DNA of 43,499 nucleotides from a virus. Below the pieces are notes generated by a model. The model was given only the letters and a program-made list of their open reading frames with translations, did no database searches and was not told the DNA's origin. The stretch covers positions 1 to 43,499 of IMG/VR virus record IMGVR_UViG_3300033148_002445. The stretch is one strand, 5' to 3'. The position numbers and the translations under genes are program-made. This document shows, piece after piece, positions 19,557-42,066 of the stretch (position 1 is its first letter; every line of letters starts with the position of its first letter).

Positions 19557-19599
19557 AAAACCCCGGCAGTCGAGGAGCGCCCCGACTGCCGGGGTTTTT
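19557..19599 (+). terminator. Rho-independent terminator
   Basis: CCCCGGCAGTCG and CGACTGCCGGGG form a 12-bp stem with a 10-base loop, preceded by AAAA and followed by TTTTT. It separates the 140-aa gene from the tail nozzle gene, whose ribosome site begins only a few bases later. Confidence 0.9.
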
Positions 19600-22450: not shown

Positions 22451-22933
22451 ATGGCACTCAGAAAGCCCCTCGTAATGGCATCTGGGCAAATTCAGCAACT
22501 TCAATCAGGTGATACCCTCGATGCGCCGGTTGCCGCTATTGACGTAATTCAAGTTACCAACAATAATGCAGGTGCGATTACGATTTGCCAGGCTGTGTAC
22601 GTCGATGCGGCAGGTACGGTCGATCTCGCAAAAGCCGATGCCTCTGGTACGGCGAGGGCAATCGCTCTTGTTCGTGCTGCGTCTATTGCTAATGCGGCGA
22701 GTGGCGGTGCGGTAACGGATGGAGTCTTGACGGCAACGACGGGGCAGTGGGATGGAATTGCTGGAACGACTGGTGGGCTTACTGCCGGGGCGGTGTATTA
22801 CCTCAGCAAGGATACGGCTGGCAGTTTGACGGAGACCGCACCCACTGCCATTGGTGATCTCGTTGTAGAAGTTGGTACGGCATTGAGTTCAACCGAATTG
22901 GAAGTTACCTTCACGCGGCCCGTTCTCTTGTAG
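22451..22933 (+). CDS. Fibre-module protein 2 (160 aa)
   Basis: AGGAG precedes the ATG. Residues 1-26 (MALRKPLVMASGQIQQLQSG) are nearly identical to the N-terminus of the next gene and related to that of the one after, so this looks like a common virion-attachment peptide. Residues about 40-160 repeat the C-terminal module: ICQAVYVDAAGTVDLAKADA, GQWDGIAGTTGGLTAGAVYY and a final ELEVTFTRPVLL. Ala/Gly/Thr-rich with alternating strands. No enzymatic residues. Likely one of several interchangeable fibre or knob subunits. Confidence 0.65.
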   Translation: MALRKPLVMASGQIQQLQSGDTLDAPVAAIDVIQVTNNNAGAITICQAVYVDAAGTVDLAKADASGTARAIALVRAASIANAASGGAVTDGVLTATTGQWDGIAGTTGGLTAGAVYYLSKDTAGSLTETAPTAIGDLVVEVGTALSSTELEVTFTRPVLL

Positions 22934-22941
22934 GCGAAGTC

Positions 22942-23868
22942 ATGGCATCTAGAAAGCCACTAGTGATGGCCGCTGGGGTTATCCAGCAATTACAGGCCGG
23001 GGATGCTCTCGATGCTTCGGTCGAAGGTTTGCCGACTTCCCTGACTGCCGGGTCGGTTGTCTTTTCGGACGGGAGTAATCTTTCACAGGATAATGCGAAC
23101 TTTTTCTGGGATTCAGGTAATGCCCGGTTGGGCATCGGAACAGCGGCCCCCGGAGTGAAACTAAGCGTTTTCCCGGATTCGGACATTTCTGGTGTTATCG
23201 GACGTGCGCATATTGGTTACATAGGTGCGAATGATTTTGCAGGATTTTCGCATGTAGATCAAAATGCCGTTGGGTCATACGCACTTATACAGTATTACAA
23301 TGGGAAGACGCAATTAAATTGCGCCACCGGACAAGACATTACGTTTCGGATCAATAATGTAATCAGGGTGTCATTGACGAGTGCCGGTCATCTTGATCTT
23401 CATGGTAATAATCTCCTGAATCCCGGGACGGGGCACGATGCCTTTTCGGATTACGTTGCTGCCGAACATGTTCCATTTTCCTTTCAGAGAGATAACGCTG
23501 AAGCTGGTGCAATTACGATTGGAATGCCCGTTTACGATTACGATATAGATGAAGTTAAAAAGGCAAAGGCAGATGCAGATGGAACTTCAAAAGTTCTCGG
23601 ATTAGTTTCTGACGTATCCGTTGACGCAGCTGCAACAGCAAACATACAATTTTCTGGCATTCTTACCGCGACAACCGGGCAATGGGACGCTATTACTGGC
23701 GGCGCAGGAGGACTCTTGGAAGGGTGGTATTATTACCTCGATGAATCAACCGCCGGCCACATGACCGCAGCCCCTCCATCTACTACCGGACAGTATATAG
23801 TACGGATAGGAATTGCGCTAAGCACTACCAAAATGCGATTACTACTCAGACAAAGGATACTTTTTTAA
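22942..23868 (+). CDS. Fibre-module protein 3 with inserted beta region (308 aa)
   Basis: Shares MASRKPLVMAAGVIQQLQAG with fibre protein 2 at the N-terminus and the same C-terminal module (residues about 190-308: GMPVYDYDIDEVKKAKADAD, TGQWDAITGGAGGLLEGWYY, LLLRQRILF). Between them lies a 140-residue insert (SQDNANFFWDSGNARLGIGT, AHIGYIGANDFAGFSHVDQN) whose NARLGIGTAAPGVKLSV string is the widespread fibre-knob connector found before intramolecular chaperone or knob domains in tail fibres. The ribosome site is weak (TAGGCGAAG). The stop overlaps the next ATG (TAATG). Probably a longer fibre isoform. Confidence 0.7.
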   Translation: MASRKPLVMAAGVIQQLQAGDALDASVEGLPTSLTAGSVVFSDGSNLSQDNANFFWDSGNARLGIGTAAPGVKLSVFPDSDISGVIGRAHIGYIGANDFAGFSHVDQNAVGSYALIQYYNGKTQLNCATGQDITFRINNVIRVSLTSAGHLDLHGNNLLNPGTGHDAFSDYVAAEHVPFSFQRDNAEAGAITIGMPVYDYDIDEVKKAKADADGTSKVLGLVSDVSVDAAATANIQFSGILTATTGQWDAITGGAGGLLEGWYYYLDESTAGHMTAAPPSTTGQYIVRIGIALSTTKMRLLLRQRILF

Positions 23869-36808: not shown

Positions 36809-37615
36809 ATGGCCTTCGACTTGAATTCAATTTCGACCGGCGCTGGCCTTCAGGCGCCTAGGATTCTTGTTCTCGGAACTCCAAAGATTGGAAAGTCCGA
36901 ATTTGCAGCAGGCTCCGATAGCCCGATCTTCATTCCAATTCATGGTGAAGAGGGGATTGACCAAATTAACGTTCCACAATTTCCGACATGCGACAAACTT
37001 GGCGATGTCATGGATTGCTTCAAGACGATCCGTGAAAGCGATTACTTCAAGACAGTGGTAATTGATTCCGCCAGTACACTCGAACCACTTCTTCATGCGA
37101 ACACATGCGCCCGCTGCCCGAACAAGGATGGCAGCTATCCAGTCGGTATTGAGACTGTTTACGGTGGATATGCGAAAGGGTACACGGAAGCGCTAACGGA
37201 ATGGAAGATGATTACCGATACGCTCGACATGCTGCGCACCGAGAAGGGGATGGCGTCGATTATCATTGGGCATGTTGTGGTAAAGAGATTCGACGATCCA
37301 ACTGGGCTATCTTATGACCAGTGGCAATTCGACATCAACAGTAAGGCGGCCAATCTTCTTTACAAGTGGTGTGACAGTATCCTATTCTGCAACAAGAAAA
37401 CTGCCGTTGCCAAAGAGGACGTTGGCTTCGGGAAGGAGAAAAAGAGGGGAATTGACGTCTCGGGTGGACAGCACTATCTCTATACGAAATGGCACCCCGC
37501 ACATCCCGGTGGTGGGCGTGGAGTATTCGGCCGTCTCCCATACGAACTTCCGCTTTCATGGAAGTCATTTCAAGATGCCGTTACGGCGAAGACTGCGGCA
37601 GAAGCAACTAAGTAA
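36809..37615 (+). CDS. Sak4-like RecA-fold ATPase, recombination/annealing protein (268 aa)
   Basis: Walker A is GTPKIGKS at residues 23-30 and Walker B is TVVIDS at 82-87. The order RILVLGTPKIGKSEFAAGSD, a central Cys pair (CARCPNKDG), IIIGHVVVKRF as motif 3 and a basic middle (NKKTAV) fit the phage nucleotide-binding RecA-core proteins of the Sak4/Sak3 type, which promote single-strand annealing together with a phage SSB. The next gene is a DUF669-type SSB-like protein, the usual partner. Length (about 250-280) is normal for the family. The alternative is a host-type RadA/DnaB-related ATPase, less likely at this size. Confidence 0.75.
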   Translation: MAFDLNSISTGAGLQAPRILVLGTPKIGKSEFAAGSDSPIFIPIHGEEGIDQINVPQFPTCDKLGDVMDCFKTIRESDYFKTVVIDSASTLEPLLHANTCARCPNKDGSYPVGIETVYGGYAKGYTEALTEWKMITDTLDMLRTEKGMASIIIGHVVVKRFDDPTGLSYDQWQFDINSKAANLLYKWCDSILFCNKKTAVAKEDVGFGKEKKRGIDVSGGQHYLYTKWHPAHPGGGRGVFGRLPYELPLSWKSFQDAVTAKTAAEATK

Positions 37616-37649
37616 CAATCGTTCCCGAGTTTCAACAGAAAGGCATTTC

Positions 37650-38243
37650 ATGTCAAGTTTTCAAGAGATTTTTGGACAGGGTGGATTTGTTACGAATTCC
37701 GTGGCACCGGCAACGGATTACGCAATCATTCCACCCGGCAAGTATCCGTGTACTATTGAGTCTGCCGAGGTTAAGCTTACAAAAAAGCAAGACGGGTACT
37801 ATCTCGAATTGGTACTCGTGATACTAGAGGGCGAATATGCAAATTACAAAATTTGGGACCGCATTAACATCGCCAATCCGAGTGCGCAATGCCAGAAAAT
37901 CGGTCGCGGTACATTAGCCGCGCTGAACCTTGCACTTGGTATTGCGAACTTAGAGAACGAAAGTCAGGTCGTTGGTGGCGTGGTTGTCGCGCATGTAAAG
38001 GTCAAGAATGAACAAAATGAGGTTCGCACCTATTCGTCGTTGACGGACTACCGCGCGGAGCAAGCCGCCGCACAGGCTCCAGTTCAGGCTCCAGTTGTGG
38101 CGCAACAACCTGTCCAGCAAGTTCAGCCTGTCGTGGTGCAACAACAGCAGGCAGCCGTACGAGAACAGCCGCAACCGCAGCAACAGTGCCCCGCTCAACC
38201 AGTACATGTGCAAGGGACTACCCCTTGGGCACGGCCAACGTAA
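37650..38243 (+). CDS. SSB-like protein of the DUF669 group (197 aa)
   Basis: The start ATG at 37650 follows AAAGGC. Longer in-frame openings run inside the upstream gene. Residues 25-135 (YAIIPPGKYPCTIESAEVKL, GYYLELVLVILEGEYANYKI, WDRINIANPSAQCQKIGRGT) resemble DUF669 proteins, which bind single-stranded DNA and accompany Sak-type recombinases. The C-terminal 60 residues are a Gln/Pro/Val-rich low-complexity tail (VQAPVVAQQPVQQVQPVVVQ) ending in TPWARPT. Such disordered tails in SSBs serve as protein docking sites. The role as recombinase partner is inferred from operon order. Confidence 0.7.
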   Translation: MSSFQEIFGQGGFVTNSVAPATDYAIIPPGKYPCTIESAEVKLTKKQDGYYLELVLVILEGEYANYKIWDRINIANPSAQCQKIGRGTLAALNLALGIANLENESQVVGGVVVAHVKVKNEQNEVRTYSSLTDYRAEQAAAQAPVQAPVVAQQPVQQVQPVVVQQQQAAVREQPQPQQQCPAQPVHVQGTTPWARPT

Positions 38244-39628: not shown

Positions 39629-40957
39629 ATGCCCAGTCTTAGTGACATTATTCCACGGCCGACTGATACCGAAACAGTAAGGGCCATTTATGCGCAATAC
39701 AAAAAACGCGGAGATGCTGAGCCGATACGTGGTTATCTTGGCGCGTCCATTATTGGCCACCCCTGCGAGCGTTACCTATGGTTCAGCTTCAGAGCTTGTT
39801 GCAAGGGCGACTTTAGCGGTCGCATGTATCGACTCTTCGAGACTGGAGACCTTGCGGAAGACCGTTTCGCAGATAACTTACGAAGCATTGGCGCAACAGT
39901 CCACGTAACTGATGAGCACGGAGAGCAATTTAGTGTATCGGCTTTTGGCGGTCATTTTTCTGGGCACCTAGACGGCTGCGCCCTGGGTATTCCAGAGGCC
40001 CCCAAGGCTTGGCATGTTTTGGAATTCAAGACGCACAACAGCAAAAACTTCAAGAAGCTGATCAAGGATGGCGTGGCTCTGGCTTTTCCGAAGCATCACG
40101 CCCAGATGATGATCTATATGCACTATACTGGGATGCCACGTGCGCTATATCTTGCCGTTAACAAGGATACGGATGAACTGTATTCGGAACGTGTTCGATA
40201 CGACACAAAACAGGCGGCTTTGCTCGTTCAGCGCGCAGAGCGCATCATTAGGGCCCAAGAGCCGCCGACCAGGATCTCGGATCGACCTGACTTCTGGCAA
40301 TGCAAGATGTGCAACGCCAGGGATATTTGTCATGGATCAGTTGCGCCGGCACCAGCACTCATAGTCCCAGCACTCTCATGTAAGCAGTGCTGCCACGCAA
40401 CGCCGACGATGGGCGGCGTAGATGGAAGGTGGGTCTGTGAGAAACACAAAAAGGCGCTGTCAACCAGTGCCCAAGAGAACCTCTGTGAAGATCATCTTGT
40501 TTTGCCGGGGTTATTGCCGTTATTTTCCCCCGTCGATACAGGCAAGGACGCCAGTGGTTCTGATTTCATACAATTTCAGGACGACAAGGGGAATGAATTT
40601 CGTCACGGTCGCGAAAAGGGGGCCTTTAGCAGTGTGGAACTAACCGTCCTGCCTGCGCCTCTTTTGGCAAATTCAATGGTTACAAGGGCTAAGGATGTCT
40701 TCGACGGAACCGCCATGACGTGTTGCGAAGACATTCTTGATCGCTATCCAGAGAAGGATTGCGAAATACTATGGAGGGGGAATATTGGCGGACTCATGGA
40801 GGCGTTGGTAATTCAATTGGGACATCCTTTCGTGGATGACGACATCATTGCACGCACTGTTTTATCAACTCATTGCGTTGCCGAATACGAAGGCGGCGTA
40901 ATCGCCATTGCGTATCCCGACACCGGACGAGCGGAAATCAAAAGGAGAAAAGCATGA
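39629..40957 (+). CDS. Cas4/RecB-like PD-(D/E)XK nuclease with Fe-S cysteines (442 aa)
   Basis: The nuclease core has the PD-(D/E)XK motif: Asp115 in FSGHLDGCALG, then Glu132 and Lys134 in HVLEFKTHNSKN. Cys46 (GHPCERYLWFSF) plus Cys225, Cys228 and Cys234 (WQCKMCNARDICHG) form the 4Fe-4S cysteine set of AddB/Cas4-type nucleases. Cas4 proteins are about 200 aa; here a C-terminal extension (residues about 240-442) adds another Cys/His cluster (CKQCCHATPTMGG, VCEKHKK) and a domain of unknown role. In this operon it probably makes or processes 3' single-stranded tails for the Sak4/SSB annealing pair. No CRISPR array or other cas gene is present. Confidence 0.8.
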   Translation: MPSLSDIIPRPTDTETVRAIYAQYKKRGDAEPIRGYLGASIIGHPCERYLWFSFRACCKGDFSGRMYRLFETGDLAEDRFADNLRSIGATVHVTDEHGEQFSVSAFGGHFSGHLDGCALGIPEAPKAWHVLEFKTHNSKNFKKLIKDGVALAFPKHHAQMMIYMHYTGMPRALYLAVNKDTDELYSERVRYDTKQAALLVQRAERIIRAQEPPTRISDRPDFWQCKMCNARDICHGSVAPAPALIVPALSCKQCCHATPTMGGVDGRWVCEKHKKALSTSAQENLCEDHLVLPGLLPLFSPVDTGKDASGSDFIQFQDDKGNEFRHGREKGAFSSVELTVLPAPLLANSMVTRAKDVFDGTAMTCCEDILDRYPEKDCEILWRGNIGGLMEALVIQLGHPFVDDDIIARTVLSTHCVAEYEGGVIAIAYPDTGRAEIKRRKA

Positions 40958-41268
40958 AAACAACAAATGAATTCGATCGTCCACTGAAGGTCGGTGATCT
41001 AATAGACACGGGATTCACATTTTGTGGATGCCCAATCTTAATCAAGACGATACACGATTGTCGCTTTAGGAGTATTCGAGCATTCAAAAGACAATTCGAG
41101 AGGCAGATGTATAAATTTCTGGAAGCCATTTATGGCGCAATGTGGAATGACAATGCCATGTGGACTGGACGAAATTTCGATCCTATGAACCGCAAAGCCG
41201 GATTGAAGCGCTCGCATTCCTTCAGGAGCGTGATGTACTTCCCCTACGAAACTCCACAAAAGAAGTGA
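40954..41268 (+). CDS. Small protein with C-terminus built from inverted helicase sequence (104 aa)
   Basis: GGAG precedes the ATG at 40954, which overlaps the nuclease stop. Residues 9-29 (RPLKVGDLIDTGFTFCGCPI) and RAFKRQFERQMYKFLE are paralogous to the next small protein (RLLRPGDQLDTGLTFRGHKI, VREQFVRKIVSCFPE). Residues 77-98 (PMNRKAGLKRSHSFRSVMYF) are read from a 64-bp inverted copy of part of the helicase gene and have no protein-level counterpart in the paralog. The gene is thus a fusion of its ancestral domain with antisense helicase sequence. No domain of known function. Confidence 0.65.
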   Translation: MKTTNEFDRPLKVGDLIDTGFTFCGCPILIKTIHDCRFRSIRAFKRQFERQMYKFLEAIYGAMWNDNAMWTGRNFDPMNRKAGLKRSHSFRSVMYFPYETPQKK

Positions 41269-42066
41269 AAAACATGAAAACAGCAGCCGAGGTATGCCGT
41301 GATTTAGTTGACTCATTCAAGGATGGCGATCTTGTTCCAATTGCATTCTGGAATAAAATCTTACAAGATGCCAAAAAGGTAGTTGCGACAGCGGAAGAGA
41401 GCGGCGAACTCGAACGCCTGCTGAGACCTGGGGATCAACTCGACACTGGCCTGACATTTCGCGGGCACAAGATCCTACTCGAAATTACAGATCGCTGGTC
41501 CGGCCATGCGGCCAGCACTCGTTACAGGGAAGGTGTTGTTCGCGAGCAGTTTGTTCGTAAGATAGTATCCTGCTTCCCGGAACTGTCAAAGTAATGATCC
41601 CGCGCCCCTACCAGCAAGAGGGACTTGAAGCGCTCCACGACCACATCTGCACAAAAGATACAAATCCCGGTGTAGTTGTGCCAACGGGCGGAGGCAAGAG
41701 TCTTATGATAGCATGGGCTATCCAAATGTGGTTACGGGAGTGCCCCTGGTTTCGTTGCGTCATCCTTGCTCACAGGAAAGAACTGGTAGAGCAAAATTAC
41801 GAAGAATTCATTAACGTCATACACGATGACGATTTCCAATTTTGCGGGGAAGTGGGGATTTTTTCGGCTGCGCTCAAGCGCAGGGATTACGAATCCCAAA
41901 TCCTATTCGCCTCGATCGACTCAATCTACAAGAAGTCTGGTGAATTTTCGCCGTTCGATGTCATCATGGTGGATGAGGCGCATCGAATACCGCCAGCCGG
42001 CGAGGGGAAGTACATCACGTTCCTGAAGGGATGTAAGCGCTTCAATCCGGCTTTGCGGTTCATAGG
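41182..42066. repeat. 64-bp inverted repeat: 41182-41245 versus 42003-42066
   Basis: The strand from 41182 to 41245 equals the reverse complement of 42003-42066 at 60 of 64 positions, starting CCTATGAACCGCAAAGCC. The four differences are all transitions. The right arm is helicase codons 137-158 just before the TATP motif. The left arm lies in the 3' part of the 104-aa gene. Arms are 757 bases apart. Confidence 0.95.
41274..41594 (+). CDS. Small protein, paralog of the preceding gene (106 aa)
   Basis: Start ATG at 41274 (MKTAAEVCRDLVDSFKDG) has only a weak AAGAAGTG upstream. An in-frame ATG at 41160 would run through the inverted repeat and is rejected. Residues about 47-67 (RLLRPGDQLDTGLTFRGHKI) and the C-terminal VREQFVRKIVSCFPELSK match the preceding small protein. 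A GDxxDTGxTFxG hairpin followed by an amphipathic helix suggests a compact alpha/beta fold. Its TAA overlaps the helicase ATG, so it may be a helicase cofactor, which is inferred from coupling only. Confidence 0.6.
   Translation: MKTAAEVCRDLVDSFKDGDLVPIAFWNKILQDAKKVVATAEESGELERLLRPGDQLDTGLTFRGHKILLEITDRWSGHAASTRYREGVVREQFVRKIVSCFPELSK

Follow-up and report, generated by a model that had tools for sequence, protein, structure and literature searches.

An inverted helicase fragment in the tail of a neighbouring phage gene, probably inserted by template switching

Template-switch mutations that leave reverse-complement copies are an established class of mutation (PMC8794818, PMC8604942), and strand-displacement amplification frequently yields inverted chimeras (PMC9484634). 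In the mitochondrial genes of Nematomorpha, long inverted repeats are known whose two arms both lie in protein-coding sequence, as they do in the locus described here (PMC6649704). We analysed a virus record of metagenome type, the whole 43,499 bases of which are referred to as the window, in which 64 nt of a helicase gene recur in inverted orientation within the tail of a nearby small gene (Table 1). The kind of mutation is already known, and this example of it is clear but rare.

An inverted helicase copy in a variable gene slot

Self-BLAST of the window recovered the pair of arms at E 3.75e-21, and the coordinates, length and identity given in the original prediction proved exact: the left arm matches the reverse complement of the right arm at 60 of 64 positions, with 757 nt between the two. 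This is the sole strong non-palindromic inverted repeat in the 43.5-kb window. The other inverted match is just a self-palindrome at 19557-19598, an intergenic hairpin (-33.9 kcal/mol) followed by a T run that looks like an ordinary intrinsic terminator. Homology is lost abruptly at both arm ends, and the extension of a repeat-finder seed to 69 nt consists of chance matches beyond the 64 nt. All four differences between the arms are transitions, confined within 16 nt (left-arm positions 41213, 41214, 41218 and 41228), and they read in the helicase frame as F143L, G146E, a silent change at C147 and K148E, exactly as had been proposed. The inverted repeat is real, recent and lineage-specific among the sequences searched.

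The arms lie within a module of replication and recombination genes. A similar gene order, ATPase or Sak4, DUF669/SSB, Cas4-like nuclease and helicase, recurs in cultured phages whose helicase is related, and in several of them the nuclease adjoins the helicase directly. The gap between nuclease and helicase ranges from -4 to 1652 nt in the 34 uncultured relatives with a recognised nuclease, and among the loci read it holds different, unrelated small ORFs; the slot thus varies among these phages and in the window is filled by the 104-aa and 106-aa genes. These two genes are paralogues. The first ~55 residues of the 104-aa protein align with the C-terminal half of its 106-aa neighbour (E 5.9e-4 within the window; hhalign E 8.8e-7 against a two-sequence profile), and the 104-aa gene retains the MKT start region and ribosome-binding stretch of the 106-aa gene (26 bp, 81%), so far as sequence can tell looking like a tandem duplicate of it minus about 40 internal codons. 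The 106-aa protein is a partial paralogue missing about 43 residues, in agreement with the earlier remark that the paralogue has no such tail. Elsewhere in the window, two 80-nt stretches at the starts of adjacent genes (22451-22530 and 22942-23021) are 72.5% identical and are probably another tandem duplication.

Table 1 Coordinates of the inverted repeat, its junctions and the surrounding genes in the window
Feature	Coordinates	Strand	Remarks
Sak4-like annealing protein	36809-37615		
DUF669/SSB-like protein	37314-38243		
Cas4-domain (PD-(D/E)XK) exonuclease	39629-40957	+	Left border of variable slot
104-aa orphan gene	40954-41268	+	Apparent truncated tandem duplicate of next gene plus new tail; absent from closest relative
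ACGAAA, left direct-repeat copy	41169-41174	+	Flanks inserted block
CGAAATTTCG, perfect 10-bp palindrome	41170-41179	.	Left edge; possible fold-back footprint
Left arm, derived inverted helicase copy	41182-41245	+	60/64 to reverse complement of 42003-42066; residues 77-97 of 104-aa protein
ACGAAA, right direct-repeat copy	41246-41251	+	Abuts arm
106-aa gene, paralogue of 104-aa gene	41274-41594	+	Orthologue (55-57%) in L003/L012
SF2 helicase, 540 aa	41594-43216	+	ResIII/Helicase_C; phrog_16
Right arm, ancestral copy	42003-42066	+	Helicase codons 137-158, EGKYITFLKGCKRFNPALRFIG, just before WTATP; encoded in 39 aligned helicase relatives

An inverted insertion of this kind is rare in our sample of related loci and cultured phages. 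A scan of 590 kb around related helicases, in 96 loci that are partly redundant, detected one other non-palindromic inverted pair at E 1e-3, a 29-nt repeat of 93% identity with arms 680 nt apart (L013, 176-204 and 885-913); it may have arisen by a similar event on a smaller scale. Six regions of cultured phages, 206 kb in total, contain no non-palindromic inverted repeat larger than one of 53 nt and 81% identity, whose arms lie 18.5 kb apart. Separately, the helicase coding sequence of L003 (3193-3234), and also that of L012, L022, L023, L024 and L048, contains an unusual 14-bp perfect-stem hairpin (ATCGTGCAGAACGC...GCGTTCTGCACGAT, z -4.8), which may reflect homogenisation of its arms by a short-range template switch, an event of the same class; self-search found no hairpin of this type in the helicase of the window.

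Polarity, source and coding value of the copy

Comparison with relatives bears out the proposal that the right arm is ancestral and the left arm a derived inverted duplicate lying in an open frame. The right-arm stretch is encoded throughout the 39 aligned helicase relatives, and the left arm sits in a young, lineage-specific gene absent from the closest relatives, L003 and L012, two contigs of nearly the same virus with 75% helicase identity to the window; the left copy is therefore the derived one. In both contigs the nuclease overlaps the start of the 106-aa orthologue, which is followed by the helicase, with no 104-aa gene between them. None of the 96 related loci has an inverted helicase piece near its helicase, and no second copy of the helicase stretch lies upstream of the helicase in any relative searched. 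Third codon positions of the window helicase are 46% identical to those of L024 (the same contig as L003), against 94% identity between the arms, so the copy is recent on that scale and, judged from these alignments, the insertion postdates the divergence from the nearest known relative. The closest relatives have no 104-aa gene at all, and a search by exact DNA patterns found no empty-site genome; the event therefore cannot be polarised directly.

The simplest reading of the four differences would be that the phage's own, or a near-identical, helicase was copied and that drift followed, mostly in the unconstrained copy. Read in the helicase frame, the left copy gives EGKYITLLKECERFNPALRFI, in which Glu 146 and the TGC codon at 147 are common among relatives, and these two states speak for the earlier suggestion of a different, related helicase allele as the source. 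Such a copy would have come from a co-infecting related phage by illegitimate recombination and might act as an antisense weapon against that phage. This origin is improbable: Glu occurs at position 148 in 0 and Leu at position 143 in 3 of the 39 relatives, the left copy outside the four sites is that of the window's own helicase, and the best nucleotide identity over the arm among the 20 closest relatives listed is 47/66. An exact scan for the arm core also matched no other contig, a weak argument given that near-identical records may lie outside the scanned set.

The left arm does form part of the C terminus of the 104-aa protein, as the original prediction had it, but just ~21 of the ~43 tail residues are arm-derived. 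No source could be traced for the 58 nt before the arm in window tests or related loci, and their derivation from the 3′ end of the 106-aa gene was rejected (P about 0.7). We found no homologue of the tail, and homologues of the 104-aa protein were detected neither in IMG/VR by peptide pattern, nor in 50,697 phage records by tblastn, nor with a three-sequence paralogue profile; exact DNA patterns from the tail matched nothing else. When read in the frame of the 104-aa gene, the four substitutions affect three codons; all (4/4) are nonsynonymous and all lead to serine, replacing RLHPFRNV with RSHSFRSV. Across the whole tail, codon usage suits the 104-aa frame about as well as that of a real gene would; within the arm itself a different frame has the higher score, as codon-aligned antisense of a gene should give. 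Selection on a new coding tail would leave conserved-tail homologues or an excess of synonymous change, and neither was found. The claim that the insert was kept as coding sequence gains no support from homology, from the nature of the substitutions or from codon usage in the arm. The tail is possibly expressed as protein, but it would be no more than an extension that the phage tolerates and would have no regulatory role as RNA. The left arm is crossed by two open forward frames, since the frame of the 106-aa gene continues upstream of its ATG as far as a GTG at 41160 (144 aa; window 41160-41594).

Junctions, proposed mechanism and competing explanations

The junctions add details beyond the original prediction, namely a 6-bp direct repeat and a fold-back palindrome. 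At the left edge, ACGAAA is followed by TTTCG, which completes the palindrome, then by AT and the arm; the left junction is therefore not clean, with 7 nt (TTTCGAT) between repeat and arm. A repeat of at least 6 at such a position is expected in about 0.4% of random placements (~0.004) and a 10-bp palindrome there in about 0.3% (~0.003), both features having been noticed post hoc. Collapse of the ACGAAA repeat removes 77 nt and places both paralogues in one in-frame ORF, which would run continuously through ...MWTGRNSTKEVKNMKTAAEV... and comprise the 104-aa protein to GRN, then STKEVKN, then the complete 106-aa protein. The insert may, we infer, have split such a fused duplicate into two genes by frame shift; an in-frame join is expected by chance alone about one time in three.

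We infer that the left arm is probably a templated insertion produced by a template switch during this phage's replication or repair. Template switching is favoured because the insert is a reverse-complement copy, its source is intact, its ends are abrupt and its edge carries a repeat and a fold-back; retention of the source beside an inverted copy is what such a switch would leave. Of the original proposal of a template switch or inverted duplication, template switching stands as the best explanation. In the slot of small genes that separates the Cas4-like nuclease from the helicase, a growing strand would have come off its template during replication or repair, been extended by 64 nt with the helicase gene as an inverted template, and then gone back to where it had departed, leaving the ACGAAA repeat and the palindrome CGAAATTTCG at the edges. 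The insert, 77 nt counting the repeat, would have entered the end of a truncated tandem copy of the 106-aa gene, and the resulting frame shift would have given the upstream copy a new stop and a tail of helicase origin. Most described template switches bridge shorter distances than 757 nt, and this distance would therefore require a long exposed single-stranded region or another copy of the genome. The phage's own Sak4-like annealing protein and SSB-like protein could plausibly supply the single strand or the second copy.

Near the 5′ end of the helicase gene, TTGAAGCGCT at 41625-41634 has its reverse complement inside the right arm at 42036-42045, a 10-nt inverted match that could seed strand annealing. 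A shared 11-mer (TTGAAGCGCTC) also raised the possibility that a duplicated 5′ end of the helicase gene gave rise to the arm together with its 3′ flank; support for this is weak (arm P 0.001-0.003, post hoc) and the idea is not needed, the 11-mer being kept just as a possible annealing seed. A mosaic of the helicase 5′ end and the antisense middle is unsupported at the four differing sites.

Production of the inverted copy in the tube or by the assembler is unlikely. The record is of metagenome type, inverted repeats dominate the artefacts of strand-displacement amplification, and these chimeras, like the present locus, place an inverted copy of nearby sequence in one molecule (PMC9484634). 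Those copies are exact and mostly about half a read long, whereas the arms here are 6% diverged, differing at 4 of 64 bases where a chimera would be identical to its source, and are bounded on both sides. A chimera would also need two junctions within 64 bp, and the unique flanks on both sides run into intact, expected genes in the expected order.

A role for the arms as RNA, which the original prediction raised as an alternative, is unlikely too. Co-transcribed arms would form a 64-bp duplex over a 757-nt loop, attracting RNase III or limiting expression of the helicase or the 106-aa gene, and this duplex is predicted to be strong: 63 of 64 positions can pair, three of the four changes keep G-U pairing, and the stem dominates the predicted fold (MFE z-score -12.9 against 20 shuffles). 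Nothing independent favours a function. A strong stem follows automatically from the duplication itself, any recent inverted duplication pairing this well, and the chance that at least three of four transitions keep G-U pairing is about 5 in 16. Each arm is part of an open frame, so ribosomes would open the duplex; no Rfam family matched; and the repeat is absent from relatives, with no second example for pairing comparison in the 96 partly redundant loci, leaving no basis for covariation. We give still less credence to the idea that pairing of its transcript with helicase mRNA, from the phage itself or from a co-infecting relative, is what preserves the antisense segment; were this true, a single mutation would have created an antisense control element, acting in cis or between phages, within a protein-coding tail that conceals it.

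Inverted arms also have a suitable geometry for recombination that would flip the 757-bp segment and thereby switch helicase expression off and on, a reading we find hardly credible: the flipped form would truncate the helicase after about residue 137 and reverse the 106-aa gene, promoter-like matches around the arms are at chance level, and no inverted form occurs in relatives. A diversity-generating retroelement, which needs a direct repeat pair and adenine-specific changes, was rejected for an inverted repeat with mixed transitions.

Comparison with described inverted copies

The templated inverted insertion proposed here gives a phage gene a new C terminus, with source, target and junctions all within 900 bases. 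Such cases offer a way to test the share of template switching in making orphan small genes of phages, relative to point mutation and gene exchange; this case alone alters no established view. In the mitochondrial genes of Nematomorpha, both arms encode conserved protein regions and the repeats are numerous, whereas here conservation is confined to one arm, the other forms an orphan tail, and the arrangement occurs once, in one phage (PMC6649704). Known template-switch mutations, including quasipalindrome mutations of E. coli, likewise bring a nearby reverse-complement copy that replaces or enters a site, and they too can change coding sequence while the source stays intact (PMC8794818; PMC8604942; PMC7202029). 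By contrast with these, the source at this locus lies in another gene, 757 nt off, and about 30 tail residues are gained; the yeast study reports at most five neighbouring amino-acid changes within a gene.
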